Source of the DNA: Chrysophaeum taylorii
Lineage: Eukaryota; Sar; Pelagophyceae; Pelagomonadales; Pelagomonadaceae
NCBI GenBank assembly: GCA_029834535.1
Contig: JAQMWT010000045.1
Location: forward strand, 1-64,000
Reading direction: 5' to 3'
Length of the DNA: 64,000 nucleotides
Of the stretch, positions 18,043-60,212 are shown piece by piece. The position numbers were made by a program, and so were the translations under genes. Below the pieces are notes generated by a model. That model did not search any database and was not told where the DNA came from. It worked only from the letters and a program-made list of their open reading frames with translations. The first letter of the stretch is position 1; each line of letters begins with the position of its first letter.

Positions 18043-19044
18043 TTACCCCCAGCGAAAAAATCGGCGCGCGTTTTGGGTTGTGACGCCTGCGACGTGGCTG
18101 GGCTCGACGACGCCGCCGCCGCCGAGGGCGGCCGCGAGGGCCCGCGCGACACCAGGCAAAGCGGCGGGCTCGTTCTTGCCGCCGCGAATCCCGAGTTCCT
18201 TGCGCGCGGGAATCCAGGCCTTGTCGGGCATCATGAACGGAGCGTCCGTCTCGATCATCAGGGCGTCGAGGATGCGCGGACCCTCCGCCCGAAGGGCCTC
18301 GACCGTCGGCCCGCACCTTTTGGCGATCCCGACGAACCCGGTCACCCCGACGTAGGCCCCAAACTCCCTCACGAGTCGAAGCTCCGTCGAGTTTCCCGTG
18401 AAACAGTGAACGCAGCACGCCGCCGGCTCGACCCCGACTTCGTTTAAGATTCGAACGGCGTCGGCGTACGCACCCAAAGGCTCGCCCTCGTCCTTCTCCC
18501 GGCAATGGACGAACAGCGGCATGTCGAGAGTTTTCGCGAGCTCGGCTTGGGCTCGGAAAACCTCGAGTTGTGTTTCTCGCGGAGAAAACATTCTGTCGTA
18601 GTCCAATCCCGTCTCGCCCAAAGCGACGCAGTAAGGGCTCCGCGCGACCTCGCGGATGGCCGCCTCCGCGTCGCCGTCCCAGTCCTTGGCGTCGTGCGGG
18701 TGCACGCCCGCCGTGCAGTACAACCGCTGCTGCTCGTTTCGTCGTGCCGCCCACTCTTCGCAGTACGCCGCGCCCTTCCTCGACCCCTCGACGTCGCACC
18801 CCGTCAGGACCACGCGCGATACCCCCGCGACGGCCGCGCGCTCCACCAGCCGACACACCTCGCCGAAGTCGCCCCGCGACTGCAGGTTCGCGCCGATGTC
18901 CACGCACTCCCCGACCCCCCACGCTGCAAGCGCCGCCGCCTCAGATTCGGGGTCGCGCGTTGCCGACGTCTTCTTCTTCTTCATCATCGTCGTCGTCGTC
19001 GTCGCGCGTAGTGGTATGAGACCAGCGGCTAGCAGGAGGTACAT
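18043..19044 (-). CDS. TatD-family metal-dependent hydrolase (TATDN1-like)
   Basis: A 333-residue TIM-barrel hydrolase. TatD/TATDN1 hallmarks are visible: CVDIGANLQ near the N-terminus (the GxNL form of eukaryotic TATDN1 rather than HxH), AGVHPHDAKDW, ALGETGLDYDRMFSPRETQ, FVHCRE, VHCFTG and LMIETDAPFMMP. Family members are metal-dependent 3'-5' nucleases linked to DNA repair or apoptosis. The longest start (MYLLLAAG) gives a short hydrophobic N-terminus; a second start at 18987 (MMKKKK) is equally possible and would give a cytosolic protein. The gene is divergent from RAE1, with about 70 bases between the starts, so a shared promoter is likely. Confidence 0.9.
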   Translation of the reverse strand: MYLLLAAGLIPLRATTTTTMMKKKKTSATRDPESEAAALAAWGVGECVDIGANLQSRGDFGEVCRLVERAAVAGVSRVVLTGCDVEGSRKGAAYCEEWAARRNEQQRLYCTAGVHPHDAKDWDGDAEAAIREVARSPYCVALGETGLDYDRMFSPRETQLEVFRAQAELAKTLDMPLFVHCREKDEGEPLGAYADAVRILNEVGVEPAACCVHCFTGNSTELRLVREFGAYVGVTGFVGIAKRCGPTVEALRAEGPRILDALMIETDAPFMMPDKAWIPARKELGIRGGKNEPAALPGVARALAAALGGGGVVEPSHVAGVTTQNARRFFRWG

Positions 19045-19117
19045 AAGAAGACAGACAGACAGACAAGTCGCTTGCTTGCTTGCTTGCTTACCCCTTTTGG
19101 TCGTCGACGACGACGAT

Positions 19118-20215
19118 ATGATGCTCGGAGGCGCGACAACGTCAAACCCGAACGGCGACTACGTAGTGCCCGACTCGCCGTCGGACGGGATCAGCTCCTT
19201 GAGCTTCTCGCCAAACAACCGGTACCTCGTGTCGGGGTCCTGGGACAAGTGCGTCCGGTGCCACGAGGTTGCCGTCCAGGACGGCGGCTTCGGGGGCGCC
19301 AGCCCCCAAATCAACGCGCAGTTCCGCGCCCAAATCACCCACGACGAGCCCGTGCTATGCGCGGGCTTCTCCGACGACGCGACGGTGTTGAGCGGGGGCT
19401 GCGACGGCGTGGCGAAGGCCTGGCGTCTCGGAGACGCGCGGGGCACGGCCGTCGGCAAGCACGACGCCCCGATCAAATCAATTTTCGCCGTCAACATGAT
19501 GGGCCCCCTCGTGTTGACGGGGAGCTGGGACAAGACGATTCGGTTCTGGGACCCGCGCCAGCTGCGCCAGGTCTCGCAGCTCGCGCTTCTCGATAGATGT
19601 TACGGCGTCGACGTCCGCGACACTCTCATGGTCGTCGCCACCGCCGACCGCAAGATCGCCATCTACGACCTCGCCCAGGTCGCCCAGGGCAACACCCAGC
19701 CCTTCCGCACCGACGAGTCGACCCTCCGCCACCAGACACGCTGCGTCTCCACGTTTCCTAACAGAGACGGCTTTGCCGTCGGCTCCATCGAGGGCCGCGT
19801 CGCCATACACCACATCAAGGACGTCGCCCGGAACTTCGCCTTCAAGTGCCACCGCGACCAGCAGGACGCCCGCGCCGGCCAGCCCGCCACCTGCAACATC
19901 TTCTCCGTCAACTCCATCGCCTTCCACGCCCTCGGCACCTTCGCCACCGCCGGCAGCGACGGCATCTACAACTTCTGGGACAAGGACTCCAAGCAGCGCC
20001 TCATGGCCTTCAAGCCCGGCGGAAACTCCATCTCCTGCGCCACATTCAACCCCGCGGGCAACCTCTACGCCTACGGCCTCTCCTACGACTGGAGCCGCGG
20101 CTCGGAAAACTACAACCCCCAGACCAGAAACGACATCATGCTCCACTACGTCAAGAAAGAGGAAATCCAGCAGCGCAAAAAGCAGTCCGCCGGCGGCGGC
20201 GGCGGCAGAAAGTAG
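19118..20215 (+). CDS. RAE1: RAE1/Gle2-like WD40 mRNA export factor
   Basis: A 365-residue seven-blade WD40 protein closely matching RAE1: DGISSLSFSP followed by LVSGSWDKCVRCHEV, HDEPVLCAGFSDD, HDAPIKSIF, VLTGSWDKTIRFWDPR, VVATADRKIAIYDL, FAVGSIEGRVAIHHI, FAFKCHR, TFATAGSDGIYNFWDKD and YDWSRGSENYNPQ. RAE1 binds the GLEBS motif of NUP98 at nuclear pores, aids mRNA export and also acts in mitosis. The start is taken at 19118 (MMLGG) because upstream in-frame residues are low-complexity and overlap the TatD gene; the resulting length is typical. The tail is Gly-rich. Confidence 0.95.
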   Translation: MMLGGATTSNPNGDYVVPDSPSDGISSLSFSPNNRYLVSGSWDKCVRCHEVAVQDGGFGGASPQINAQFRAQITHDEPVLCAGFSDDATVLSGGCDGVAKAWRLGDARGTAVGKHDAPIKSIFAVNMMGPLVLTGSWDKTIRFWDPRQLRQVSQLALLDRCYGVDVRDTLMVVATADRKIAIYDLAQVAQGNTQPFRTDESTLRHQTRCVSTFPNRDGFAVGSIEGRVAIHHIKDVARNFAFKCHRDQQDARAGQPATCNIFSVNSIAFHALGTFATAGSDGIYNFWDKDSKQRLMAFKPGGNSISCATFNPAGNLYAYGLSYDWSRGSENYNPQTRNDIMLHYVKKEEIQQRKKQSAGGGGGRK

Positions 20216-20345
20216 TAGTAAGACTAGTAGTAGTCGAACCTGCCCTTTATTCGAAAAAGCAAGTGCAGGCCACTACCAAGTCTCTAACCCCAGCAAGTTC
20301 ACCTGTTTTTTTAATTAATTCCGAAAAACTCGTGCCCTCGAAAAA

Positions 20346-21113
20346 ATGATCAAGCTGGCGCGGTACACCGCCGAGAGCGCTCCAACGGAATTTGTGGTGA
20401 CGCTGTGGGTCGACGGGGTGAGCTCGGTGCGGAACGCCGACGTGCTGGACAAGAGCGATCCGTACGTCGAGGTGTCGGTGAAGGGTCCGAAAGGGTGGGA
20501 GCAGACACAGCGGTCGCGCACTCGCGTGAATTCATCATCGCCGATTTGGGTGCCCGGCGAAAGATTCGAATTCGCGGTCGACGGGGAGGCGTCGTTGCTG
20601 ATCCGCGTGATGGACTCCGACACCTTCACCCCCGACGACCCCCTCGCGTACTGCGTGTGCGAGGCGGGCGCGCGCGGACGTCTCGAACTTCAAACCCTCG
20701 ATCCGCGCGACAACAAGGCGCTCCCGGGCGTTGTACGGGGCCGCGTGCGCTTCGACAAGGCGAGCGATGCGCCGGCGATCGTGGAGCACGTCGTCGCCGA
20801 GAACCAGAGGTATGTTCCGGGCCGGAGTTGGGGGGCCCGGAACCTAATGATTGGCGACCCCGGTCCCTGGGTCTGCGACCAGCAGGCCGGCCGCAGCCTC
20901 TCGGGGGTGGCTCCGGAGGTTCCCGAGGGGTACAAAGTGGTTTCGGACTGGGGCTACGTCACGCCCAAGGAGCGATCCGACGGCTGGGAGTACGCCGTCC
21001 ACTTCGGCGCGTCCTTCAGAGACGAGAAGTCGCCCGCCACCTTCGTGCGCCGGCGCATGTGGGTCCGCCGCCTCGCCCGCGCCTATCTCGTCGATGATGA
21101 TATTATTATCTAG
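20346..21113 (+). CDS. C2 domain plus dysferlin/peroxin (DysF) motif protein
   Basis: A 255-residue protein with an N-terminal C2 domain (about residues 15-130). The Ca-binding loops look intact: LDKSDPYVEV and VMDSDTFTPDDP. The C-terminal part (about 165-245) has the Trp/Arg pattern of the DysF fold shared by dysferlins and peroxins Pex23/Pex24-type: WGYVTPKERSDGWEYA, then VRRRMWVRRLA. Such modules bind membranes and, in yeast, act at ER-peroxisome contacts. A Ca-dependent membrane adaptor is the likely role. No membrane anchor is seen. It follows RAE1 by 130 bases on the same strand and its stop lies six bases from the stop of the convergent ankyrin gene. Confidence 0.8.
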   Translation: MIKLARYTAESAPTEFVVTLWVDGVSSVRNADVLDKSDPYVEVSVKGPKGWEQTQRSRTRVNSSSPIWVPGERFEFAVDGEASLLIRVMDSDTFTPDDPLAYCVCEAGARGRLELQTLDPRDNKALPGVVRGRVRFDKASDAPAIVEHVVAENQRYVPGRSWGARNLMIGDPGPWVCDQQAGRSLSGVAPEVPEGYKVVSDWGYVTPKERSDGWEYAVHFGASFRDEKSPATFVRRRMWVRRLARAYLVDDDIII

Positions 21114-21118
21114 AGTAG

Positions 21119-22444
21119 TCACGAGGCGCAGAGGAAGCAGATGAACGTGTCCCGCAGAGAGGTTTGTTGTTTTTTTTGGCTCGAGAGCAGCGGCTGCCGC
21201 GCCGTCTTCTTGTCGAGGAGGAGGGATCCCGACGAAGCAGAAGAAGAGGAGGAGTAGGTTGCCTTGGCGTCTTTGACGAGGTCCAAACAGGCGCTGCGGT
21301 CGGGGTGGTCGGCGAGATGAGTGGCCGCAGCATCGCGACGACGACGACGACGGTCGCGCTGGCGCCGGCTCTTGCCGCTATCGCCGCCGCCGCCGTCGTC
21401 GTCGTCGTCATCGTGTCGTTCTTCTTCTCCTTCTTCGAGGTAGGCGTGCGCGACGACGGGGTCGGCCCCGTAGTCCAACAAAAGCTTGGTGCAGTCGTGG
21501 TCGCCCTCGACGACGGCCGATGCCAAAGGGTACGCTGACCCGGCGTCGCCGCCGGCGACGTTCGGATTCGCGCCGTACCTCAACAAAACCGCGACGCAGT
21601 GCTTGTGGCGATACAACACCGCCTTGTGGAGGGCCGTCTGGTAGTGGACGAGGTTGTCCTCGAGTTCCCGCGACAAAGCTGTCCCGGTAGTGGAGCCGTC
21701 GGACTTGACGTCGACGACGGCCCTAAACTCGTCGAAGCGAAGCGCGCACGCGAGAAGGTCGGGCTTGTTGTTGACGGCGGCAAAGTGCAAGGCCGTGTAC
21801 CCATTTCCCTTGAAGCCCGCGACGCTCCGCAGCTTGCCCCGCGCCCGCAAGGCCTTGGCAACGATTCGAAACGTCGAGGTCTGGCCGTGCTCCGCGGCCA
21901 AAATCAATGGGTGAAAGCTTTGGGCGTTCTTGCGGTCTAGTCCGCATCCGAACGAAAGCAAGAGCTTCGCAGCTCCCGCGGCGCCGGTCTTCACCGCGAG
22001 CAAAAAGGGCGTGATACACATGTGGTCCACCGCGTCGACCTGCGCGCCGGCGACGCACAGCGCGGCGATCTCCGGCTCGCACCCCTTGAGGACCGCCTTG
22101 TGGAGGCACGTGAGACCGTGAGAATCTCTCTTCTCGAGGCCCGCGTGCTCTTTTTCCTTCGGGTGCCGCACCACCAGCAGGGACTCGTCCATCTGCGGCA
22201 GCCGCGCCTCGCGAAGCGCCCGCGCGACCCCGTTTCTGTATTCCTCGAACTTAGCGTGCGCTATGCGATGCGTCGACATTCGCGCCTTTTTCGCTTCTTC
22301 GCGCAGCCGCACGCCCTCGTGCCGGAGCCGCACCAGCATGTAGAGGTCCCACCGCTCCTCCTCGTCGCTCTCCGGTTCCGAGTAAGCGAACTCTTCCTCG
22401 TGGGCGCAGCACAAAAACTCGGCGTCGACACATCTGATCGACAT
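21119..22444 (-). CDS. Ankyrin-repeat protein
   Basis: A 441-residue protein with an acidic N-terminus and about six ankyrin repeats between residues 100 and 330 (HGLTCLHKAVLKG, ITPFLLAVKTG, HPLILAAEHGQ, YTALHFAAVNNK, QTALHKAVLYRH, YPLASAVVEGD). A low-complexity acidic then basic linker (DDDDDDGGGG, RRQRDRRRRRR) follows, and the end is CFLCAS. The partner is unknown. The start at 22444 (MSIRCVDAE) is chosen because upstream in-frame sequence is low-complexity. Confidence 0.85.
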   Translation of the reverse strand: MSIRCVDAEFLCCAHEEEFAYSEPESDEEERWDLYMLVRLRHEGVRLREEAKKARMSTHRIAHAKFEEYRNGVARALREARLPQMDESLLVVRHPKEKEHAGLEKRDSHGLTCLHKAVLKGCEPEIAALCVAGAQVDAVDHMCITPFLLAVKTGAAGAAKLLLSFGCGLDRKNAQSFHPLILAAEHGQTSTFRIVAKALRARGKLRSVAGFKGNGYTALHFAAVNNKPDLLACALRFDEFRAVVDVKSDGSTTGTALSRELEDNLVHYQTALHKAVLYRHKHCVAVLLRYGANPNVAGGDAGSAYPLASAVVEGDHDCTKLLLDYGADPVVAHAYLEEGEEERHDDDDDDGGGGDSGKSRRQRDRRRRRRDAAATHLADHPDRSACLDLVKDAKATYSSSSSASSGSLLLDKKTARQPLLSSQKKQQTSLRDTFICFLCAS

Positions 22445-22690
22445 TATTATATTCTTGTTTCCTCCCCCGAAAACTGCAACTGTTGTTTTGCCGCGCGCGA
22501 AGAAAGAAAAAAAAAAATAATAATAATAATCAGACAGAGACTTCTCCTTTCTTTTTGGCTTGTGTGCGATACAGCGGCGGTGCGAGCTCGCCCTTTCTTG
22601 TTTCTCTACGACAACAACTTTAACCGCAAAACAACAACAACAACAACAAAGGGGAGTGGTAATAAACACCTACCCTCTCCTCTCTCCACC

Positions 22691-23802
22691 TCAAAACCCC
22701 CAATCCCGAGCGGCGAGGGCGAGGCGGGTGATTCCCTCGTGGTGCATGCGGTGGTCCTGGGCCGTCGCGGCCCCCATGACGAAGGAGGCGAGGGCGAGGA
22801 GGACGCCGGCTTCGAGATCCGGCGGGTCGAGAGCGCCCGGGTCTTCGGGTCTCTCGGCGAGGTAGGTCTCCCGGAGGGAGGCGTCCATTTCGCGGCGAAG
22901 GTGCGGGGGGAGGGCGAGAGCGACGAAGTAGGCGTAGTCGTAGGCACCGGCGCCAACGGAAGCGAACTGCCAATCAAAAACGCAGACCTCCCCGTCGCAC
23001 ACTCGCATATTATCGGGTCGAAAATCGCCGTGCAAGAGCGTGGGATGGGTGGTCGCGAGACGCTGCAGCAGAGTCTCGTACTTGGAGTGGTCTGCCGCGA
23101 GGTCTTCGATTACCAACTTGACGTCGTCGCCGAGATCCGCGTAGGAATCCCTAACCCTCGTCCACGCCCATCTAAAATAGGACGCGATTTGGGGGCCAAG
23201 GACCAGATGCACGGGGGTGAGCGGGATGGGGCCCGTGGGAGTCATGCCGCGCCACCTGTTGTGGAGGCGACCCAAGGCGCGAACGCAAGCGGCGCAATCG
23301 TCGCCGCCGACCTCGCGCCACGCGGAGACGTCTTCCAAGAGAAGCAAGAACGAGCCCGTCCAAAAATCGTACCTCGCATCTTCGCATTTCGGGCACCGGA
23401 CGGGGGTCTCGGGCGCGAGGCATTTGTAAAAATAGACTTCGCGTTCGTACCAGCGCTGGAGTATGCCGACGCGACGCGCGTTCGGATCCGTTGGCCGTCG
23501 CTTCGCGATGAGGGGTCCCACCCTCGTGAGCGTCGAGTTCTCGCCGCTGACACCCAACGGATCTTCGGGTCCGTTCGTCGCGTACTCGTCGCCCAATATG
23601 CGGCCCAAGAAGCGCTGGCACGAGTGAAGCGTCGTGCGGTAGAGGTAAAAATCCTGTAGCGCACGCGCGTGAGGTTGTTGTTGTTGAAACAACAACACAA
23701 ATCAACACGAAGAACGCTCGTCTCTCCCGGACCTTGGGCCCTCCACATCATCGGAATGTCGAGGAATTTGACGAGTCCGGTCCATGACGCACCATCATTC
23801 AT
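22691..23802 (-). CDS. APH/choline-kinase-like phosphotransferase, two exons
   Basis: A protein-kinase-like phosphotransferase of the aminoglycoside-phosphotransferase/EcKL group. Catalytic signatures are clear: LLHGDFRPDNM for the Brenner motif and VFDWQFASVGAGAYDYAYF for the metal-binding Asp region; SGENSTLTRV lies in the N-lobe. The main exon runs from 22691 to 23653. The frame upstream lacks a good start, but ATG 23802 opens a short exon (MNDGASWTGLVKF) that joins in phase through an intron of 53 or 62 bp (acceptor CTACAG at 23654, donor at 23706 or 23715). The protein would be about 350 residues. The substrate is unknown: sugar, choline, steroid and antibiotic kinases share this fold. 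The start lies 16 bases downstream of the previous gene's stop. Confidence 0.8.
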
Positions 23803-23818
23803 TCAAGAGATTATTTAT

Positions 23819-26725
23819 TTATTTAAGAGATCCGTTAGAGAAGATGAAAAATGCCGCTCTGATTGGTTTGTGGTCAGAGACAGACACTTGGGCGACGCAA
23901 TCGTGTTCGGTGCACTCGACGTCTAAGTAGTCGTCGTCGTCGTCGTCTCTTATGCGGAGGTCCGCGAGGGTGTGGCCGACGAGGACGCGGTCGGTGTAGG
24001 AGGGGAGGCGGTTAGGTACATATTGGAAGCCGGGGCGGCGCTCGACCTTGTAGCTGGGCATGTGGCGGCAGGGGGGGGCTTTGAAGCCGTCGAGGCAGCC
24101 CCCGGGATCGAGCTGGCGCCGGAGCTCGTCGACCGACTCGAGGAGACCGTACTCCCCCGCGGCCGCCAAGGCGAGGACCTTGTCGTTGGTGAGGGGCGCG
24201 ACCTGAAGATTGAGAGATTGATTGGAGCGATAGTTGAGATCGCCCGACAAAAACCAGACCGCCGGCAGCTCGAATTTCGCGATCCGCTGGCGGATGCGGT
24301 CGAGCGCGGCGTTGCGCTCCTCGCATTTCCCTTCGTGGGCGGGAAGGTGGACGTTGGTAAAGACGTACGTCGACCGACGTCCGCGGTCGTCCCACGCGAC
24401 GACGAAACTCGTGAGCGAGCCCTTGAGCAAACCGCCGGCGGTGATGGCGTCCTTGCCCGCGCACTCGATCCGAATTCTGGTAAACACGAGCAAACGCATC
24501 CCGAGTCTCGTGTGTGCCGAGCTCGCGTCTGACGCGTATTCGTAGCCTTTTAACTGCGAGCGCACGACGTCGGGAATGCTCGCGAAGGCCCGCGGGTTTC
24601 GGACGTTGAAGCATTCCTGGAGAGACACGACGACGATGTCGGCTTGGCCCCTGGGGGTCTGACCCCCTTTGAGCCACGGCCCCACGGCCGCCTCGTCGAG
24701 CGACCCGCACCCGAGGTTAAAAGTCGTCACCAAAACGCGCAACCCTTTCCTATCTTCCTCGTAGCACAAAACGCTTTTGGACGGCGGGATCGTCATCTGG
24801 CGGATCGTGTGCTGGATCTCGGGGGGGTTGAGCTCCTCCAATTCGTCCTGGAGGGCCGCCGCCGTCGGTCGGTATTGCGGTTCTGGCGCGAGGCACTCGC
24901 GCGCGACGCTCAGGACTCCGGCGACGGCCGTCGCCTCGCGTCGGATCGCGAGCCTCGGGTCGACGATGGCCTCGAAGAAGTCCTTCTGTCGCACCCACGA
25001 CACGAGATCTCGAGGGGTCCTCGAGGGGTCCAGCCCTTCCTGCCCGGTGACGAGGCTCAGCAAGACGACGCCAAACGAGTAGACGTCGGCCGCGGGCGTC
25101 AGGCGGCCCGTGCGCGCGAAGCTCGGGCAAACGTAGCCCAGCGTCCCCGAGATCCCGGCCGTGACGTGGGTGGCTCCCCCCTGGATCTCCCGCGCGAGCC
25201 CAAAGTCCGCCAGCTTTGCCGGAAGACCCCGCGCCGACAGCAAGATGTTGGCGGGCTTGACGTCGCCGTGCACGTATTGCGCGCTGTGCTGCGAGTGCAA
25301 GTAGAAGAGGCCGCGCGCGGCGTCCCTCGCCACTTGGATCCGGAGCCGCCAGTCGAGGTCACCCTTCTGGAGCCTCGTTTCTAACGACCCACCCCCGCAA
25401 AACTCGAACACCAAAAACCGCGACAGCGGATCGACGGCAAATCCGAGGAGCTCGATCACGTTGGGGTCGTGCATCCTCGACAGGATCTCAACCTCCTGGA
25501 GAAACGCGGCCGTCCCCCCGTGGGAATGCTTGGGCGAATCGTGGAGCCGCTTGATGGCGACGACCCCGTCCGATGGTAGCTCGGCGCGGTACACGGACCC
25601 CGCCCCGCCCTCGCCCAACAGCGCCGCCGACGGCGCCGCGATCGCCCCCAACACCGTCGACGTCTCAAACCTCCGCACCAAAATAGGCTGCCGCGCCTCG
25701 TCCACGGACGACGGCGGCGGCGGCGGCGGCGGCTTGGTGGCGGGGACCACCACAACTTGCGAATACGAGGGGGGCGGCGCCGGCGCCGACGCGAAGTTAT
25801 GGTTTCTAGGGCGGGGCGGCGGCGGCGGCGGCCTTCGCGCGGGCGGCGGCGTCTCGGGGTGCCAGTCGGTGGTCGTCCACCCGACGCTGTGGAGCGCCAA
25901 ATCCCGCAACTCGGGAGTGATCCCGTTTTCGCGTTCGTAATCCTGGAGCACCTGGGACCGCGAATCGAAGCTGGTGCCAGTTCCTAAATTAACCAAAAAG
26001 GCACAGTACTCGTGGACGCGATCGAAGTCGGACCGGTCCACGATTCCCGCGAACGCCTCCTCGCGCTCCCTGGTCCCAATCCCCCGCTCCTCCTCCCACT
26101 CCAACAACATCTTTTGGTCCTCGAAGGATGGATATTCGGTGAACATGAGCGCCACGAGCGTCCGGTATTCGTTTTGGGGAAGGTGCGCGAGCGCCCGCTC
26201 GAGCCTCAGCGGCTTGAGCCCCTCCAGCAATGCCCGGGCCTCGTGATCTTTCAGTTCTCGCAAATCGTCCAAATCGTCCGCAATGGCCGTGAAACGAGCT
26301 TCCAAATGCGCGATCCCACACACCTCGAGCCACTCCCGAAGCGTCCGAGCGCTCGCGACGCGAGGCGTCACGACCGACTCCGCCAGCCGCTCGGGATCGA
26401 GCCCGAAATTGGTTGCCAGAGTCGTCGCGAACTCGCGATCCATAAATTCCATGTCCCGCGGCTCGTCGGCCACCGACCGAATCGCGCCGGCGTATTCGCT
26501 CAGCCCCCGCTCCTCGATCCACCTCCCCAACTCGTCGTCGCACCGCAGCTCGGCCACAGCTCGAACGAACTTCTTCGCCTTTAAAGGCTTCATGCTCCAC
26601 TGCGCCGCGAGTGCCTCCGCCTCGGCGTCGTCGAGGGCCCGCAACCCTTCGACACCAACCGACCCGAGCTGCGGTAGGTATGCCTCGAGCCCAGCGCGCG
26701 AAGCGAATGTCTCGAGACGACTCAT
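23819..26725 (-). CDS. SAM-like/protein kinase/inositol-5-phosphatase fusion protein
   Basis: A 968-residue intronless multidomain protein. The N-terminus (1-290) is helical with SAM-like or related segments. A Pro-rich linker (290-340) follows. A protein kinase of the Pelle/RLK-like group spans about 365-635: glycine loop GEGGAGSVY, VAIKRL, catalytic HGDVKPAN (Gly in place of the usual Arg), DFGLARE, GTLGYVCPSF (where APE is expected) and DVYSFGVVLLSLVTG. The last third (about 660-962) is an inositol-polyphosphate 5-phosphatase domain with VVVSLQE, FTNVHLPAHEGKCEERN, FLSGDLNYR, LPSYTDRVL and SDHKPI, so the key catalytic motifs are kept. This suggests an enzyme coupling phosphorylation to phosphoinositide or inositol phosphate turnover. 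I know of no described family with this order, though I cannot search. Confidence 0.9.
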   Translation of the reverse strand: MSRLETFASRAGLEAYLPQLGSVGVEGLRALDDAEAEALAAQWSMKPLKAKKFVRAVAELRCDDELGRWIEERGLSEYAGAIRSVADEPRDMEFMDREFATTLATNFGLDPERLAESVVTPRVASARTLREWLEVCGIAHLEARFTAIADDLDDLRELKDHEARALLEGLKPLRLERALAHLPQNEYRTLVALMFTEYPSFEDQKMLLEWEEERGIGTREREEAFAGIVDRSDFDRVHEYCAFLVNLGTGTSFDSRSQVLQDYERENGITPELRDLALHSVGWTTTDWHPETPPPARRPPPPPPRPRNHNFASAPAPPPSYSQVVVVPATKPPPPPPPSSVDEARQPILVRRFETSTVLGAIAAPSAALLGEGGAGSVYRAELPSDGVVAIKRLHDSPKHSHGGTAAFLQEVEILSRMHDPNVIELLGFAVDPLSRFLVFEFCGGGSLETRLQKGDLDWRLRIQVARDAARGLFYLHSQHSAQYVHGDVKPANILLSARGLPAKLADFGLAREIQGGATHVTAGISGTLGYVCPSFARTGRLTPAADVYSFGVVLLSLVTGQEGLDPSRTPRDLVSWVRQKDFFEAIVDPRLAIRREATAVAGVLSVARECLAPEPQYRPTAAALQDELEELNPPEIQHTIRQMTIPPSKSVLCYEEDRKGLRVLVTTFNLGCGSLDEAAVGPWLKGGQTPRGQADIVVVSLQECFNVRNPRAFASIPDVVRSQLKGYEYASDASSAHTRLGMRLLVFTRIRIECAGKDAITAGGLLKGSLTSFVVAWDDRGRRSTYVFTNVHLPAHEGKCEERNAALDRIRQRIAKFELPAVWFLSGDLNYRSNQSLNLQVAPLTNDKVLALAAAGEYGLLESVDELRRQLDPGGCLDGFKAPPCRHMPSYKVERRPGFQYVPNRLPSYTDRVLVGHTLADLRIRDDDDDDYLDVECTEHDCVAQVSVSDHKPIRAAFFIFSNGSLK

Positions 26726-26880
26726 TTTTTTTGTTCAACAACCAAACCCTGCTGACTCACCTTCGACGCAGGATACATCCTGCACGCACTCAGGACCTAG
26801 CAAAAAAGAACGATCCTTCAGAAGATTACTCGAGGACTGCGTATATATTATCCCTCCATGGACCACCACCTGCGAAAGAA

Positions 26881-27036
26881 GAAGCGAAGCGAAGCGAAGC
26901 GAAGCGAAGCGAAGAAGCGAAGCGAAGCGAAGCGAAGCGAAGCGAAGCGAAGCGAAGCGAAGCGAAGCGAAGCGAAGAAGCGAAGCGAAGCGAAGCGAAG
27001 CGAAGCGAAGCGAAGCGAAGCGAAGCGAAGCGAAGC
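26881..27036. repeat. (GAAGC)n pentanucleotide microsatellite
   Basis: About thirty GAAGC units with occasional GAA insertions, upstream of the kinase-phosphatase fusion. The open frames through it (RSEAK and FASLR repeats) follow from a 5-base period and are not genes. Confidence 0.95.
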
Positions 27037-47751: not shown

Positions 47752-48090
47752 GAAGTGTGACCTCTCTAGTAGGGTATTATTGTTACGTTGTGGGAAATAT
47801 ATCAAATTTCGGCATCTCGAGAAGGAAGGAAGGAAGGACGGACCTGCTGCTTCTTGATCAATCAGGCTCTCTTTCGCGTTCTAAAGAACCCTAGTTTCTT
47901 TTTTTTTCTTTCTGGGTGGTGTCTTCTCGCGGAGCCGCTTCTTCTGTGTGAGTCAAACGCCGCCGCCCCACGGGCGAATTTTTTTTTTTTCGCCGGGAAC
48001 CCCTATCTTCTTTGTCTCTCGCTCGCTCGCTCGCTTAGCCCTGCTGGTCGAGATTGCTCGCCATCCATCCCCGCCGCTGTTTGTTCAAAA
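47752..48090. other. Spacer between TTL-like gene and LTR element
   Basis: A 340-base spacer with T-rich runs and no coding frame of note. It ends at the left LTR. Confidence 0.6.
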
Positions 48091-48474
48091 TCCAGAGAGC
48101 TACACTATTATGCGTGCGACACTGGAACATTTTCACATCTCTACACGAGGGTTTTCTCTCCGTAATACGGCTTTCCCTCTTTCTTCCTTTTCCTTACCCT
48201 TCCGCCCTTTTATCTTTCATGACTATGAAGAACCCAGTCTGAAGCTCTTAGTAGGCCTCCAGGTGCGTACCGTCAGGCACGGGGTTGTCTGTTTAATTAA
48301 CAGAGGCTTCGTTCCTCGTTGTCAGTGTAAACGCTTCTATGGGACCTAAGGTCCTTAAGGAGTTAGGACTCAAAGCCCTACCTTCTGTAGTAGCATGTGT
48401 GACTAGCGGAATGGTCTGTACACGCCTAAGACTGCACGCAGTCTCTGCCATGTACCCGGAGAGGGTCAAATCTC
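48091..48474 (+). repeat. Left LTR of the copia-type element
   Basis: Shares nearly all its sequence with 59813-60212, from GAGAGCTACACTATTATGCG to GAGAGGGTCAAATCTC. Exact ends are uncertain because no clear TG...CA termini or target-site duplication is visible by eye. Confidence 0.85.
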
Positions 48475-51400
48475 TCCAGGTTTATGGGCCCAGATGCGTA
48501 GGTGTGTCAGCCCAACTGTGTTGTACGCCTAAATCGAATGATCAATTTACGCCTTATCACGAGTACAACGCGACAATGTGTTTGGCGGTGGTCTACTGTA
48601 CATATTTGTTGTGTGACGGTATGCGCCCACCAGTTAAATTGGTTTGTGACCGAGTTGGGTCGGTCACTGGTCACATGCACTTGCATAACTAATAAAATTA
48701 AAATCTTTCCTATACTAGCCGCGGAACCTTGTACGGGTTTTTCCTTCCATTCCCCAACAAAAGACTGACTGCTCGAGAACTACTCCATTCTTCAGTCTCA
48801 AGTCACCCTGTTTTAAATAACATGTTGATTTGTTTGGTCTTGTCAATAAGCCTACTTTTTTTTAATCGCGTACTGTACATAGAACCCACACTTGAGAAGC
48901 CCTTCATTCTTATGTGTCGAATCTGTCTATCAATCCTCTATAACCTATTTCTTAATAGGTCACAACCATGTCAAAACAAAAAACAATATCCACCACGGAT
49001 ATCTACAAACAAGAACAAATCCTCGTTGATAAGATTAGCGCAGGATTGCGTTTCCAAGACAATTCAACCAAGGTGAGCTTGCAAATTGAGGCGCTTCGCA
49101 GGCATATGACAAGTCCATATGTGGACGCGTTATTCTGCTTTGATTCATATGAAGCTTACACCCGGAATGCTCCGGAATATAATCAAATCCTTGAACGAGA
49201 AGCTGATATCATCTTCGCTCAATGGAAAGCTGAACAAGTTAACGATTTAAACTTACCTGATGAAGATGCCCTGCCTGACCATCTTAAAACTTGGCACGTC
49301 AACTCATCGCATCAATTATCAGTTGATGTCCGTAATAAACTTGAACGACTTTACTATCAAGAGTCGTACAACATTATTCGTCCCGAATTAAATGAGGATG
49401 TCAAACGTGCCTTTACAGGTCTCTTTAATGCCGATTGGATCAAGCACTGCGAAACTTATGCCGGTTTCTTGTACACATTCTTTAACCTTGAGTCCCAGGA
49501 GAAGCCCGCTCTCGCCATGTGGCCTCAACTAAAGAAAATTTATGCAATTACTGCACATCCCAATAAATTACGTGCTATAATGCTTTTAGCATACCATTAC
49601 TATGAGACAGTGTCTTGTACAGATGTAACTGAGCTTAAATCTCAATTTAATCGAATGTCTTTAAATGTTAATTGGTATGCCCATGTATTTGTCGAACAAC
49701 TCCTTTCCTTTCAATCTCAGGCAAAGCAATTAAATAATGATGAAGCATCAATCCAATTTAATAACTCCATAATCACTCTTAAAGCTCACGAGGAAGGGGA
49801 TCTACCGTCCATATGCTAATCCCTCGGATCGCGAACCCCCAATCGTTATTGGAATGGTGTAAACTCTACGAGACACGCTCTGGTAACAACTCGAGTCACG
49901 ATCCCGAATTGTTAAAGCTAGTTAATCCTAACGACGTTCGTCCACTATTGGAATTCTTGTTAAAGATACATAATGAGAATGAGACAAAGTTTTCTTCTAA
50001 CCGACGCTTGGATAAACCCGCTTCCTGGATCCCTTACATCCCTTGTACCACTGCTACCAAGCCACCTAAGGTATTATTGATGGATACTATTCATCAATCC
50101 GACGACTCTCTAAACAACGCTTACTCGTTGTTAGCCACTGTAGCTGGACAGTCTGGCTTCAACGCCCGTAAGCTTCGTAATGCATAAGATAAAGCATCGA
50201 CAATCTCACCCCGTGACACGTCGTACTATCGTTCACCCTCAAATTATAACATCAAAGGTACCAGTTTCGATCGTCCTGTCTGTTCATCTTCCTCTAACCG
50301 TAATGCACGCTCTAATATGTCTCTTATGGACCGGGCTACTTATCGAGTTGATCGTCTTCGCCACCTGTTTGGTAAATTGCAGGAAGCGAATCCCAATCCT
50401 TCCACCGACTCTAAAATGGTACAGGAGGAAATGAAAAGCTTATTGAGTACCCTCTGGACAACCGCTTCTCAAGCTTCGACACAGTCCTTAGATCCTGATG
50501 AAGCCACCCAAGTTCATCTCTACTTATCTCGAGTTGATATTATGTCCAATACCATATCGAACCTCTTGGAAGCCGATAAGGAATCTCTTGTTTCAGAAGA
50601 AAAGTATCAAACTGAAACATCTGCTCCGGAAGCGTCCCCCAGTGATGCGGAGCAGAGGGGGACTGCGAATACAGAGAAAATGTTCCACACTTTCCTGTCA
50701 ATTAAAGATGATAAAATCGATAACATCCCTCAGCCGCTACTGCAGCACAGAAATGCTAAAGCTCAGAATGCTATTGTTCGTCGTCAAGATCGGGAAACTT
50801 CTTCGCACTCTGAGCTCCCCAGTAATTTAACCAATGAAGATAATGAAGATGGTACAGATCCCCCTGTGTTGCTACCAAAATTAAATGCTGGTTCTACACT
50901 CGTCGTTGTGCCTTCCGAACAAACGCAAAGTTTCATGACACAGTACGTGTTTGGTCAAAGCTCAACACATGCCTGTTATGCACCAATGCTTAAACTGTAC
51001 AACGAGTACAATTTGCCGCTAATGACTACGCCAGGATATGCTGACACATGTGCTTCTCAACATGTAATTAACTTTAATAAACGTTATGCTGATCCTATCC
51101 ACATCGTAAAGCTACCCGAGACTTTATCACCTGCTATCCAGACTGCTACGGATACGCAGAGAATCACACATGCTATGATTATAAGGACCGTCATTCCCGC
51201 TCTGCCAAAGCATCCAAATGTGGGATATGTAAAGCTAGACGTTGCGCTTTTTCTACCCAAGCAAAACGACCATAACGATCCCGATCTGCACATCATCAGT
51301 ATGACTCAATGGGGAGAAGATAAACTTGGTATACACCTTTATGGAGTTGAATTTAAAGGACAATCATCTATCCAGAGTAAAATTGATGATAATGTCAAGA

Positions 51401-54400
51401 TTACTTTGTTTAGACTCAGTAACCTGTTGCCAACTCTACCAATTTACTCGCTGCAACAAGCAAAAGCGCGTAAAATGGAACTTCGCTCACTACAGTTCAG
51501 ACTATGTGCTTTTAATGAACAACGCGAAATGCTCAAACTATATTCCACCCTCATGGAACGAGTAATTTATGTCCCATGGCTTAAAACCATTTTGGAGTCA
51601 ATGCATTCGCAGCTGCCTTATATACGCAAGCATTTCCCACCTCCAGTATGACGCAAGGTTACAACACGTTTGCTCCATACAGTAACTTCATCTACTAGCC
51701 CACGAATACCTACAGTAACTTTACTTTGCTCTGGGATGTCCACTCCTGCATTCTTGGCTTGCGCTTCTAATGACTTGCAAATCAACATCAACGTTAAAGT
51801 TCTTGTTGAGAGCGACGACAATATCACGCACATGCTACGAAGACGTTTTGGTAATTCCATCGAAGTTTTCCCATCCCTACCTAAGTTTTTGACATATCTC
51901 CATCGAGCATCGGACGTTGAACGTGCACGATATTACACTGACATAGTGGAATTGACATCACCATGCACAAATCGCAACATAATCAATGGGAGATCCATTT
52001 CCACCTTCGAACGCGATATGGATGATTCCTTGTTTCCAAGTGCTCTAAGTGTACTTGAGCTTTTAAAGCCGCTTGTTCTTTTCATGGAAATGGCACCACC
52101 ACACTCTGCATCGTACGAAGACCATATACGAGTTGCTAATCTCATCTTCTCAACGATGCACTACACGGTGGACATATGTGACCGATTTCCATGCTATCTA
52201 TGTGGAGATTATCAAAAGCTAGAGAAAGATGGATCCTCGTTGCACGCAAATATAACACCGGCCCTCTCGATCTGCTTTCATGGCCTAATAAACGAGTCAC
52301 TTCTTTTCTGGATATTGCAGACCACGCTAATTCCATCAGTCGCAAGTTGATAGTCGACGAACCTTGGACGCAGGTCTTTCCTGACATACCATTTGTGTCC
52401 TCACCTAAAACCTACAATATTATCAGTCGTACAGGATCCGTGCGCTTAACTGTGACTGAGCTTGAAACCTTAACTATGCTGTTCCTTCGTCTGCACTCTA
52501 ATAAAAGAGTCGAACATCCCAGTCAAGATGAAATGGAGGGCATTTCTAACTTTCGCCTGGGATTCTTGACTAATTCAAGAAAACCACTTGCTTGCATGAG
52601 ATCCCCTATTGAACTCAAAGCTTTTGTGCTCCTCTATAATATTATGGGACGATTATTCCCTAAATCCATCACATTGCCTGTTTCCTTTCGTATTACAACT
52701 ATCGAATCTAACCAACCATCTCACAGGTTATTCTTAAATAAATCCCCTACTTCATCCATCATTTACATCACTGGCGGAAGATATACGGGCGGAGACATAA
52801 CAGTTTCTAACTCCTCTTCTAAATACCAAACACACATAAATGCTTTTGGCGAAACCTACTCCTTTTTAACACACGATGCCGGAATCGATAAGACTGCTTC
52901 TCTCGAACCAGTTACAGGTTTTCTTTGGCTTTGCCAAGCATACCATCATAATGAAAATCAAGACACGCGTTGTCTAGTACAAGCACTGGTTTCATATGCC
53001 TCTCCTGTATTTCACGATTCTTTTGTCTTCTACCCTCAGGAAAATCGTCTTGAATTTATCGACAAAATATTTGCTTTAAGTGACATGCATTTGTCCCAAA
53101 GCAGATATTCGGGCTTTATAACATCAAGCGATAGGAAGATGGGTGCCAAAGTTCACTCAATATATACTCCCACTCCTACCATTCGTGGATTTGCAAATAT
53201 GCTGGTGTACGACCCACGACTCGATCGCATTCGACACTACTCAACTCGCGAATTGGCACGCGCCAATAATTTCACAGCGTACCAAATCAATTTTCTTTTG
53301 TCTTTGTCCCCTGACCTATGCTGTGATGTCATCGCAAATGCTATTCCAGCTGGAACATATCATACAATTCATAAACACTTATGTCAGCTTGTTTACGACT
53401 TGCGTACATTAACACTATCACCATCGTGTGACCCTGATCACGCTCCTCTAACCAAAAACTATAGGTCAACCTTCTTCACAAATATATTCCCAACAGATAC
53501 ATCTTTAACATTACACCAGAGTTCTATTACTATGTTCTACATTTCTAATAAAAAACTTTTATGTTGTGATACTATCACTTCAAACCACGAACTTATCTCT
53601 TTTCATACTGATTCAGTAGCTCATGCTTTCCTCTCTAACATCTTATCCGCAGATATATCACCTCCTACTAAAGAAAAACAAATACCCGTTATAACACCAA
53701 GACAGCTCCATGAGAAGCATGCGCCCTTCGATAAGAAAGCCCATGCCAGGGGCACCCTTGCATTTCGAGATGCGCAACAACGAGCTACCAATTTTCACAA
53801 CATTCACCATTCCAGTGATTCTCAAGCCATAAAAGCTGTTCAGGTTATTGCCAGTCCTGGACACCACCCATCTGACGTACCCTACCGTAAGTTCTGTGTG
53901 GATTGTACGATTCATAAAAACGCTTTCCTCATCCACACCACCTTATCAAGCAACCATCATTCGAAAAATTTTTTCAACCTGGTGAAGCTTGGGCATGTGA
54001 CGGTGGTTACGTCTCTGTGCTCTCGGAGTGGGGATCCTTTCGACATATCATTGTCTTCAAGTGTCTCATTTCTAAATTTTTGTTAGTGTACTTTTGTCGT
54101 AGCACTAACTCCAGCGAATTTTGTAACGCCCTTGAGTTTGTTCGTAATTTTTGCTCTACTTATGTTCATGTACAACTAAAACAAATTTATTGTGATTCCT
54201 TTAAACCCTATTTATCCCAGCATGTTACAACCCCCTTCCGTGTGGAACATGGTATTAATATGTCCGCATTCCCCCTTACTTACATGTCTTTAATCATGAA
54301 GTCGAAGCCGCTGTTGGTCACATAGCCACTGCCGCGTCTACACGACTCAGGCATATGCTTAATGTATCCTATAAAGGTCACCCCCTAATAGATCCGGCAC

Positions 54401-57400
54401 CACACTACCCGTGGGCTGTTATACATGCCATCCAATCGTATAATCTCCTCCCTAACGTTTCCCTCGAACGTACCTACAATAAAGTCCTAAGTCCCCAACA
54501 AGTTTTGTTAGACCAATGTAATGTTCCCCAACAAGACTACCTCAAACCTTTTGGCTCCGTTTGTTATTTGCATTTGGAACCTAACGAATTTCATAAATAT
54601 GAACCCCGATGCCGTCCCTACATCTACTTATGTGGTCTAACGTTATAAACCCCTTAATAACACCCCATGTTAATCATTAAGCCGATGTTGTCCTTAATCC
54701 TGAAAACGATCAAGTCCGTGTTTCCTCTAAACTTACTTTCCCCCATCTTAATTCTAAATCTCCTCCTGATTATGAACAACATCCACCTCCCGCACCTTCA
54801 CCCGACACTCCCTTCTCTGTTCACAGCACCCCCAATGATGCGACGCAGAGGGGGAATGCTATGCCTACCGACCCTGACCATGAGAGGGGGACTCCTTCTT
54901 CTCATCTCCACGCCCCCTCTCCCGCTCCCGCAAGTCCAGCTGCTCCTGCACCCGCTACTTCCGCCACCACACCTACATCTGAAGTGTCTCCCGACACTCT
55001 CCCACTTTTACCATCTTATCGGTCTCTCTATTCCCAGGATGTCCTCTGTCTCACCCGTGGTCCTCATCACCCTCAGCCTCGTCGCAAAACCAACAAAGAT
55101 GTTCTTACTCGTGTTGCTTCGCCTACTATTGCCGCTTATAAACAAGCCGGTGGTGCGCTTGCCGACTTCAAGTACGACCTCTCCAAGCAGTACATAACAT
55201 TCTGCGACCCCACCCTCCACTCCCTTCATATCGCTCATGGCATCCACTGGACGGCTATACCTCCAGAGGGGGAATTTACACCATCCCTTCATCACCATGT
55301 GCACCAAGCGATTTCACAGTCCTCTTCAGTTATGTGTCATAGGAGCCATAGCCACCCATCGCCTGATGCTCCTCATGTCCACTTCTACGACGACGTCAAC
55401 CTTGCCGACTTTCACCTTCCTCAGGCTCTCGTTCATTTAATTTCTGAACATGCTCACGCCTTTCAAGTTCCTCCCGCTCAATATGCTTATGCTTTGTTCA
55501 CGCCCCACTCCATTTTGGATCATAATGACGCTTCTTATGGTGCTTCCGAGCCTCATCTCTCCGCCATCGAAGACTATATCACCGTGCAATCGCATTACAT
55601 TGAAGCCCACCTTGGTGATGCTCCTCTACTAGTCGTTCAACTCATCGAAGATCCCGATCACGCTCATCTGCCAGATAATGTCGCTTCTTACGCAATTACT
55701 CATCTGACGACGACTCATGACCCCAGCACGGTTGGTTCGGACGAATACAAGATTCAAGCCAAAGATATCAAAATTGATGAATATGAATTGAACTGCCTCA
55801 AAGGTCTCTCAGACGCTGATCGCAAAGCTTATGTTGCTGCCATCTCCAAAGAGATTTTTGACATTGTTAAGTTTGGCTGCTTTAAACTAGCGCTGCCAAT
55901 GGTCAACTCAAAGCCTATTGACACCCGTCTCGTCCTACGTATAAAAACCAACGCTGCTGGTCAGTACATTAAACATAAAGCACGCCTGGTACTACGAGGA
56001 TTCTTAGCCTCGCTGGGCACCGATTTCTTCAACACATTCAGCCCTATGGCACAGCTTACCGGCATCCGCTGTGTTTTGGCGCTAGCAGCTCATCTGCGAC
56101 TTCCGTCTATCATGTCGACGTACCTAACGCTTTTGTTCAAGCTCCCATCGATTCGCATGTCTATGTTAAACTGCCACAAGGCATTTACCTTCTCGATCCC
56201 GAAGATACTAAATACCAAGGCCGCCGTCTCCCAAAGCTACTTAAATCTCTCTATGGATTGCGTCAGAGCCCTGCCCTTTGGAATCAAACCATAAACAGCT
56301 TCTTTGATTCATTAGGCTATACACGATTTCGAACAGACACATGCATTTACGCTAAAGTCCAAACTGACGCTACATTTCTAATTTGTACGCTCTCAGTAGA
56401 CGACGTCGTCATTACTTGTACTTCGGAAACTCTACGTCGTGAGTTCCAGCAAGCCCTGAAAAAGGAATACTCAGTCGACACCTTCGAGGAAGTCCATACT
56501 CTCCTAGGCATGCGCATAACGCGTACAACAGATGGCTCTATATCACTGGATTGTCAGGCTAAACTGGACGCATTGTTCGAAGAGTACCCCATTTTAATGC
56601 AGTTACGTCCCACTTCTACACCGATGTCACCATCAGCCACGTATAAAACTGGAGAGCCATCTTCTGATATGGACAAGTTTATTCTTCAGACTTTCTCTCT
56701 ACCTACTTGGTAAGCTTACTTTTGTCCAATTGGCTTGTCGCCCTGATCTATCCCAAGGCCTTAGTCGTTGCTCTCGAGGAGTGCATAATCCAGCATTTCT
56801 ACATGTTCAAGTACTAACAGGAACGCTCCGCTACTTGCGTAAGCAAGCCCGAAAATCGTAATCTTCGCCTCTGGTACTACTCTGGTTCTTCCGCTCTAAT
56901 GGACCATCTTCGACTTCTTATCGGTAATCGTACTGACATGGCCACCATGTTGGACTACACTAAAGAACAAGTTAATTCAGGTAATTTTGATCCACTGGTC
57001 GCATTCGTTGATGCCGATAATGCACCTTCTTATGAACAAGACCGCAAATCTACAACAGGCTACGCCATCTTTTTGTTTGGTTCTCTCATCACTCGGAAGT
57101 CAAGCTGCAGCCTATAACAGCTACTTCTACGCATGAGAGTGAACTTATCGCCCTCAATATGTGTGCCGATGATGTGGTTTGGTTACGCAAATTGCTAACG
57201 GAAATGACATTCGCATAAACCCTCACTTCTATCTTCGCCAACCTTCAGGGAAAGATTTGTTACTAGATTATGATGCTCAAGACAATCCCCTCCCATCGGA
57301 CATGTCGTTCATACGTAACAGTCCCATACTTGGAGATTCGGCCTCTGCTATTCATCTATCAAACAACCCCGACAGCGCGACTAAGGCTAAAGCTATCAGC

Positions 57401-59812
57401 ACACGCTGGTTCCGTATACGTGACTACGTACAGTTAAAACGAATCCGCCTACATCATGTTTCCGGTACCCATAATATTGCCGATGGATTTACCAAACCCT
57501 TTGGAGTTCCACTCTTCAGCAGATTTCGCACGTTACTCGGCTTACAACAACCCATAGCTCAACAAGACGGTTAATCATTACCCTCCATTATGTTCGAAAT
57601 GACTTTAAACTAACCCTGCTATGCACAGGATACTGGCTTGCTAAAATGTGAAATGCTACATAAAATGTGATGTGGAGATTCCTCTCATGATGAATCCCAC
57701 TAAAAACAAAGATGCTGCGAGCCGACGCCACTCTACCATGAACCGTGGTCGCGGTGGTGGTATACTGTCACTGTCTCCACCTTTTAATGCTCTAACTCCA
57801 AGCGCTGCACCGACTAGTTCCCCTAATCGGAAACATCAAACCTATTTGTCGGTGGCGCAAGGACATCAATCGAAGCCCGTGACGCCCAGGGCGCGCAAAG
57901 CAGCTGCCCAACAACAGTCTAAATCGCAAGCTGCAAAGTCTGAGTATTTCCTACTCGAACATTGTAAATTTGACGTATTAGCGATGATGTCCGGGAACGT
58001 TACTGCTCTTGGCTCATCACCACCCAACTTTTTTATTCCGCAACACAAGGACCCCCAGTGCTGGTTTAAGTCTTTGCAGCAGCTGCTTACGGAAGCACAA
58101 CAGACAGTGTTTGTAGACAACGTCCATTATCTCAGCTCCGTGTTGTGTGTCAAGACTAAGCGTATCCGAAACGCCCCCGCTATCTCTCCTAACGAGGGTA
58201 TCCGTTTTCATCGCTTCCCACTCATTAAAGGGGTTGTCAAAGTACATGTGACATGTACAAAGTGCTACAATAAAGTTGATGCGCCAGGCACACCAGTCGT
58301 GCTCATCATTTGTAATGAAGATGAACTTAAAACTGACAGGATTCGCCAAATTATTGAGGATCATCTCGCGTCTGAGCAACATGCATCCCACTGCTTCGAC
58401 GTACCGCGCCCTTTCTTCTTGTTGATTTGTGCGCTGTGCGATCGGTCACATCATGGGATAGCTTTAATTCGCAACAGTCAGCAGCCCTTCCAACTTTCCT
58501 GCTTTAACGATCCAGCGGCCCACACCAGAGCTATAATCCTCCGCCTTGGAAAGTCCATTGCTATTAATAAGCAGCTCAAAGAGGCAATCATGCAAACTGC
58601 GACATCCCTTAAAGTTGATGCCTCAAAAATCATTGTTAACCCTGACGATAGCAGCATGCTTTTACTTCGGCTGCCCTTTATCTCGAGTGTAAATCTTGAG
58701 ATTCTTGTAGCAGCTTGGTCTCTGTTACATTCTGTTGAAGATAAAGTATGCGTAGTAACCAACCCGGATAAGTTGATCTTGTCGAGCGCTTCGTTGATGA
58801 TGTTTCCCACCAATTTAACGCAATCTCCTCAGAGACGTTACCGCTAATGCTTAATTATTTTCGTCAACTATCACCTGTAAAGCAAGCTGCCTTAAAAAAT
58901 ATGCTAATCCAGGTTGGCTACCCTTCGGACATAGGTGATGTCTTTTCAGATGATACTTCTTCTGAAGATGTTTCACCAGCGCCGATCGACAATCCACCCG
59001 CCGAACCCACGCTAGATAAAACTAACGATAATATGACTGAATCTTTACATCAATTATAAGAAGAGGTTCGGTCTTTATCCTTGCGTCTCACTAATACCGA
59101 ACAGCAATTGATGGCGCAAGATCAACAACTATCGCTTGCATTAACATCTCTCACACAGATGCAAGAGACTTACGAAAATTAAAACACCCAAGTGATAGAG
59201 AACATCAAGCATGTGCCTCTATAAGAGAACATCTTGTCAAGTCTTCAGATGCATCAGGACATCATAATCCCGTCCTCTGCTGTATTTGTCCATATCATTT
59301 CTCGGTCGCTTATCTCATCTATTGGACAGCTCCCCCCAGATACGTATAATGAGGCACAGCAAGTTCAAATCGACGCAGCAGCTCATCACCTCCACACAGC
59401 TATGTCTGATGCAAATGACCGTGTTATTCCTGCATTGGATCTACACGCTCTTACACCCGACTCTGCTATGTCTTTCTTTTCATCTGTCATATCACCCTTG
59501 GTTACCTTGAGTGATGCAATGACTACGCACAATACCAACACTACTAACGACCCACCATCTGATGTTCATAATTCATCTTCTCCAGAGTTAAAGGAACTGG
59601 ATGATAATAGCGAAGATGAATTGGACCATACATCTGATGTTGTGGATACCGATACTGCTTCTTTGCGCAACATCACAACACGCTCGACGTCATAATTAAC
59701 TTGTCCTGTTCTGTTGTTGTTTGTTCCATTGTTCACTGTTCTCATGTATATTGCACAAGTTGCGCCTCAAGAACGTCTGAAATGCATAGACCGTTTCCAC
59801 ACGTTGAGGGGG

Positions 59813-60212
59813 TCCGGAGAGCTACACTATTATGCGTGCGACACTGGAACATTTTCACACCTATCTCTACACGAGGGTTTTCTCTCCGTAATACGGCTTT
59901 CCCTCTTTCTTCCTTTTCCTTACCCTTCCGCCCTTTTATCTTTCATGACTATGAAGAACCCAGTTTGAAGCTCTTTTCCAGCATGGAGTAGGCCTCCAGG
60001 TGCGTACCGTCAGGTACGGGGTTGTCTGTTTAATTAACAGAGGCTTCGTTCCTCGTTGTCAGCGTAAACGCTTCTATGGGACCACCTAATGTCCTTAAGG
60101 AGTTAGGACTGAAAGCCCTACCTTGTGTAGTAGCATGTGGCAAGCGGAATGGTCTGTACACGCCTAAGACTGCACGCAGTCTCTACCATGTACCCGGAGA
60201 GGGTCAAATCTC
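59813..60212 (+). repeat. Right LTR of the copia-type element
   Basis: Matches the left LTR with a few substitutions and short indels, and is preceded by a G-rich polypurine-like run. Confidence 0.85.

Follow-up and report, generated by a model that had tools for sequence, protein, structure and literature searches.

A predicted polypeptide of the pelagophyte Chrysophaeum taylorii that carries an RLK/Pelle-type protein kinase and an inositol polyphosphate 5-phosphatase

Results

One open frame encodes both enzymes

We analysed a 64,000-nucleotide stretch of Chrysophaeum taylorii DNA (contig JAQMWT010000045.1, positions 1 to 64,000; hereafter the window). Its minus strand at 23819..26725 is a single open frame of 968 codons, followed by TAA, in which a protein kinase of the receptor-like kinase (RLK)/Pelle type is joined to an inositol polyphosphate 5-phosphatase. 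We consider it reasonably probable (about 65%) that the product is a signalling enzyme with both activities on one chain, recruited through its N-terminal region and removing lipid 5-phosphates locally. The computed basis of this reading is the one frame, the two domains, the 5-phosphatase fold, the expected catalytic residues in each enzyme, and related proteins that share the fused order.

According to the sequence and Pfam, the frame encodes three SAM-like domains, two helical repeats, a proline-rich linker (residues 291-358; 25652..25855, like all features of the frame on the minus strand), the kinase domain (residues 359-632; 24830..25651), an inter-enzyme linker (residues 633-659; 24749..24829) and the 5-phosphatase domain (residues 660-962; 23840..24748), both linkers being read from the sequence. 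Its start methionine is identical in the deposited C. taylorii protein (P0002). Pfam matched the kinase family PF00069 at residues 369-625 (E 8e-41) and the 5-phosphatase family PF22669 at residues 668-957 (E 1.4e-25), and no in-frame stop codon lies between the two. A preliminary description, made from the letters of this DNA, had proposed the same 968-residue fusion with helical SAM-like segments in front of the enzymes; the motifs that it cited are all found in the frame, and the domain search that it suggested matched both enzymes.

Structure modelling of the first 300 residues gave SAM-like domains plus short helices; the model has the SAM fold, with the EphA2-SHIP2 SAM-SAM complex as its closest match. 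The SAM-like segments of the preliminary description are thus present as a fold, while the SAM_1 profile matches only below its cut-off (14.5 bits vs 23). Domains 1 (residues 1-61; 26543..26725), 2 (residues 62-124; 26354..26542) and 3 (residues 125-186; 26168..26353) were assigned from the fold and from sub-cut-off SAM_1 matching (E 0.047-0.056). Matches in relatives are also sub-cut-off (P0003, 18.7 bits, E 0.0023; P0122, 14.9 bits), and an Aureococcus-like relative carries WWE and SH3-like parts instead. The two helical repeats (residues 187-290; 25856..26167) were defined by alignment and helices, and the alignment places them also in P0122, P0003, P0004 and P0005-P0007. The C. taylorii copy has no Pfam match; the copy in P0004 matched TerB under the cut-off (E 0.0079), a name that we do not claim for the repeat. 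Searched against the C. taylorii genome, the N-terminal 300 residues had no other match at E 0.1.

The fused order recurs in related proteins

Three database searches gave a list of proteins up to P0204, with the query as P0001; 203 of them (P0002 was omitted) were scanned together with 515 frames from the C. taylorii genome. The first search contributed its best 120 of 412 matches and each search scored about 8000 candidates, so further fusions may have been missed. Both enzymes were found in one chain in 13 proteins: the C. taylorii protein and 12 others. Four of the latter are from Aureococcus anophagefferens (P0008, P0010, P0126 and P0127) and the remaining eight are P0003-P0007, P0009, P0122 and P0123; the preliminary description had suggested looking for the same order in other stramenopile genomes. 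These 12 are not independent: P0005-P0007 are near-identical, and the alignment suggests that P0004, P0008, P0010 and P0127 represent a single gene in several versions; the phosphatase of P0127 is only partial. A search with the P0004 phosphatase returned 86 matches. Nine of them are listed with a kinase family, and all nine belong to the fusion set or are its deposited copy; several diatom enzymes are among the rest.

In a 5-phosphatase tree of 58 rows, from which the long branches P0179, P0203 and P0169 had been removed, nine fusions form one group (support 100/99). Ten fusions also group together in the kinase tree (44 of 75 rows), at a support that is not strong (85/62; 88% of 200 bootstrap trees). 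Trees of both domains contain two subgroups. Subgroup A holds the C. taylorii protein, P0122 and P0004, to which the kinase tree adds P0003 and P0008 and the phosphatase tree adds P0123; subgroup B holds P0126, P0005, P0006, P0007 and P0009. Support for A and B is 97/92 and 91/82 in the kinase tree, and in the phosphatase tree it is 99/98 for A and 85 (SH-aLRT, quick tree) for B. Since Aureococcus has both an A member (P0008) and a B member (P0126), the simplest reading of these sequences would be a single fusion followed by duplication before the split between C. taylorii and Aureococcus.

The C. taylorii genome (70.8 Mb, 697 contigs) yielded no second fusion, as a kinase catalytic-loop motif occurred at only this one of 18 PF22669 places when the frame around each match was read from stop to stop (1.5 kb flanks, introns ignored). 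Nor was a subgroup B copy found there: with P0126 as query, both enzymes appeared in one frame only at the A locus. A phage or viral origin was rejected; none of the 14 pattern matches obtained in a scan of viral contigs encodes a relative, and 37 phage records matched, the five listed ones in the kinase part only.

Other architectures surfaced in the same work. P0124 and P0125, found in the 5-phosphatase search, combine a class C G-protein-coupled receptor (GPCR; PF00003) with a 5-phosphatase, and P0125 also has a C2 domain. P0128 is a predicted protein with two near-identical tandem 5-phosphatase stretches plus PDZ and C2 families, which could be an assembly effect.

An RLK/Pelle-type kinase with a non-RD catalytic loop

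The kinase domain bears out the Pelle/RLK-like label of the preliminary description. Besides the PF00069 match, its closest solved relatives by sequence include SYMRK, BAK1, PBL2, BIK1 and IRAK4, and the 44-row tree unites the ten fusion kinases with L002, a standalone kinase of C. taylorii, and with 11 receptor-like kinases in a group (100/98) separate from the remaining 22 rows; ten of the 11 come from named plants, and the tree has no IRAK rows. An aromatic gatekeeper is an RLK/Pelle trait. In the C. taylorii protein this residue is Phe440, and among the ten fusion kinases it is Tyr in eight and Leu in one. Unlike plant RLKs and animal IRAK/Pelle kinases, the fusion shows neither a receptor part nor a death domain in its Pfam matches, has HGD in its catalytic loop (residues 486-488; 25262..25270) and lacks the APE Glu.

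These last two departures had been pointed out in the preliminary description and proved common to the family. The Arg that precedes the catalytic Asp in RD kinases is replaced by Gly487; Gly stands there in all ten aligned fusion kinases vs 3 of 65 other kinases, and the APE Glu is missing in nine of the ten vs 1 of 65 (P0010, P0123 and P0127 were left out of this alignment by a 215-residue length filter). Among the best 30 of 147 kinase places in the C. taylorii genome, 26 have HRD, one has HGD and three have other forms. Because the loop is non-RD, the sequence suggests that activation of the kinase may be independent of the usual contact between Arg and a phosphorylated activation loop.

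A serious rival, which we nevertheless regard as unlikely, is that the kinase domain serves the 5-phosphatase mainly as an allosteric regulator or scaffold and transfers phosphate weakly or not at all. The absence of the HRD Arg from all ten fusion kinases and of the APE Glu from nine of them speaks for it, as does P0122, which has EFG for DFG and the loop HGDVTPSN, with Thr at the loop Lys; some members of the family, such as P0122, may be without phosphotransfer. The standalone relative L002 (C59:148435-149124), with HGDLAAAN and DFV for DFG, is pseudokinase-like and points the same way. Against this, Lys392, Glu411, Asp488, Asn493 and Asp507, which we take to be the residues needed for kinase catalysis, are all intact in the C. 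taylorii protein, and they are kept across the ten fusion kinases, except that P0122 lacks the DFG Asp and the loop Lys and P0008 lacks Glu411. The non-RD plant receptor kinase EFR offers a precedent on each side: it is reported to activate BAK1 allosterically (PMC11259431), and activation-loop phosphorylation is also reported for it (PMC8463890). By eye, L002 resembles in its N-terminal part a module that P0004 and P0123 carry at the C-terminal end.

A 5-phosphatase domain that matches type II-IV enzymes

The preliminary description had placed a full 5-phosphatase in the last third of the chain and had named a structure search as the comparison that could overturn this; the PF22669 match (90.9 bits vs a cut-off of 27) and the fold were both found. 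The signatures of the family are (F/Y)WXGDXN(F/Y)R and P(A/S)(W/Y)(C/T)DR(I/V)L(W/Y), about 60-75 residues apart (PMC6563779). The C. taylorii domain has FLSGDLNYR and PSYTDRVLV, with 74 residues between GDLNYR and PSYTDR, and departs from the signatures twice: the first motif has Leu where Trp is the rule, and the second ends in Val instead of W/Y. The expected catalytic residues are present, and the D, H, K and P of the SDHKP motif (residues 950-954; 23864..23878) are kept in all nine aligned fusion phosphatase domains. In fold and in these residues the domain resembles the type II-IV enzymes INPP5B, OCRL, SHIP2 and INPP5E, to which it aligns structurally at only 22-26% identity. To our knowledge, none of these four has a protein kinase domain. 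The residue that we take to correspond to the INPP5B Lys contacting the 4-phosphate is apparently Pro in the C. taylorii protein. The available text of PMC13047053 did not confirm that contact, and we did not use it for substrate choice.

It is rather unlikely, in our view, that the phosphatase takes a soluble inositol phosphate, for example Ins(1,4,5)P3, as its substrate in the manner of type I enzymes, and so couples the kinase to calcium signalling and not to membrane lipids. Pfam identified no membrane-binding domain in the protein, and solved 5-phosphatases are only weakly similar to it in sequence (best E 2.4e-4), both of which would suit a soluble substrate. On the other hand, the enzymes that it matches in structure and in sequence are of types II-IV (INPP5B, OCRL, SHIP1/2, synaptojanin, INPP5E and INPP5K), in a comparison that included no type I structure, and the wider neighbourhood in the phosphatase tree includes C2-bearing diatom enzymes and one GPCR-linked enzyme.

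The deposited gene model ends differently

The deposited protein CTAYLR_009798 (P0002, 1263 residues) is identical to the fusion protein across 97% of the query. After residue 943 it leaves the frame through a 243-base GT..AG step (23654..23896, minus strand), an intron that we judge doubtful, and enters a neighbouring APH/EcKL-like frame (22691..23653, minus strand; PF01636 E 3.9e-15 for 22691-23701), which we judge to be a separate gene. Were this model correct, the product, perhaps as a splice form, would unite three enzymes in one protein: the kinase, a truncated 5-phosphatase and an APH/EcKL-like kinase. Three points weigh in its favour: the annotation of C. taylorii drew on RNA-seq (PMC10366177), so that a spliced form is possible, the frame is kept across the junction, and the APH frame has no ATG near its start. 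However, the deposited splice deletes the last 25 residues, SDHKP included, together with the TAA, and the PF22669 score drops with it from 90.9 to 74.5 bits. P0004-P0007 and P0009 have residues similar to the deleted ones, none of ten other fusion proteins scanned (P0003-P0010, P0122 and P0126) reaches the cut-off for an APH match, and alternative first exons for the APH gene are located downstream of the TAA. We therefore find the three-enzyme protein improbable; as the SDHKP residues are kept in the fusion domains and the removed residues resemble those of relatives, the uninterrupted frame is probably the main product and the deposited form an annotation error that merges two genes.

That two adjacent genes were read as one through assembly error is hardly credible: we found no point in its favour, no stop separates the enzymes, the four Aureococcus proteins with the same order lie on contigs of four different lengths (124,769; 4,502,484; 163,883; 761,685), the order recurs in the eight further proteins, and we ruled out two genes or mis-assembly because 12 other proteins have both enzymes.

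Discussion

A coupling of protein phosphorylation to lipid signalling is plausible for this protein. The SAM-like domains, or the WWE and SH3-like parts of the Aureococcus-like relative, would recruit or oligomerise it at a receptor or membrane complex, and clustering would turn the kinase on. The kinase could then phosphorylate itself, the phosphatase domain or nearby partners, while the tethered 5-phosphatase would strip the 5-phosphate from PI(4,5)P2 or PI(3,4,5)P3 at that site. Such a device would operate like EphA2 with SHIP2, where SAM-SAM contact unites a kinase with a 5-phosphatase, except that here the link is covalent.

Cells usually connect protein phosphorylation with phosphoinositide turnover by bringing separate enzymes together. 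EphA2-SHIP2, joined by SAM-SAM binding with a Kd of about 2.2 micromolar, is an example (PMC5993539) and the closest functional parallel; there too a kinase and a 5-phosphatase are linked with SAM domains. Unlike the C. taylorii fusion, it consists of two proteins in non-covalent contact and involves an animal receptor tyrosine kinase, and a shared fold does not mean shared partners. In PIKfyve-Sac3, autophosphorylation of the kinase switches on a phosphoinositide phosphatase that shares its complex (PMC9138534), but the chains are separate, the kinase is a lipid kinase and the phosphatase is of the Sac type rather than the 5-phosphatase fold.

Among stramenopiles, oomycete GPCR-bigrams join a seven-transmembrane (7TM) receptor to an inositol polyphosphate phosphatase (GPCR-INPP) or a TKL kinase (GPCR-TKL) (PMC6033456). 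Like them, the C. taylorii protein fuses such an enzyme to another signalling module; the difference is that here the fusion partners are the two enzymes themselves, the Pfam matches include no 7TM family, and the N-terminal model shows SAM-like domains and short helices, no transmembrane predictor having been run. Oomycete kinases with PP2C or PhoD domains (PMC3019232, PMC10925823) also unite a kinase and a phosphatase in one chain, with phosphatases of different kinds; the Phytophthora infestans kinome table, in the part available, pairs PP2C and PhoD with kinases and has no inositol phosphatase (PMC3019232). A review of bifunctional kinases has no word starting with 'inositol'; its accessible text covers kinases with phosphatase activities of other sorts (AceK, Rv1364c) and PIKfyve-Sac3, and no kinase/5-phosphatase pairing (PMC9138534). 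Literature searches, at the level of titles and abstract openings, disclosed no such fusion, domain-architecture databases being outside this scope.

We place the fusion with the multi-enzyme signalling fusions of stramenopiles, and there is a fair chance that the kinase/5-phosphatase pairing itself is undescribed. More tentatively, it might represent the first described family of polypeptides with a protein kinase and a phosphoinositide 5-phosphatase, a self-contained pelagophyte device in which the state of the kinase sets local PI(4,5)P2 or PI(3,4,5)P3 turnover and the recruiting domains are swapped (SAM-like vs WWE/SH3-like) around a kept core. Having both enzymes on one chain, kept in pelagophytes, would fix their stoichiometry, and the direction of control, from kinase to phosphatase or from lipid to kinase, could be addressed with point mutants. 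As a form without a 7TM receptor, the protein would also extend the tendency of stramenopiles to attach further signalling modules to TKL kinases and inositol phosphatases (PMC6033456), and the public model CTAYLR_009798 seems to mask an intact phosphatase.

Genomic surroundings

Just upstream of the fusion gene, 32 copies of the 5-base unit GAAGC are arrayed at 26881-27036, and a consensus-like splice donor (AAG|GTGAGT) at 26755-26763 on the minus strand, about 30 bases before the start codon, may mark an intron in the 5' untranslated region. Neighbouring genes within 18935-22666 encode a WD40 protein (plus strand), a C2-domain protein (plus strand) and an ankyrin-repeat protein (minus strand). 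A low-GC island (0.42-0.47) extends over 48000-60000, where the frame 54861-56291 contains a reverse transcriptase piece (RVT_2, E 4.1e-10) and Pfam matched neither of two further long frames. At 260-1130, the plus strand has several hundred bases of nearly pure G and then low-complexity sequence rich in T, perhaps an artefact of the assembly.
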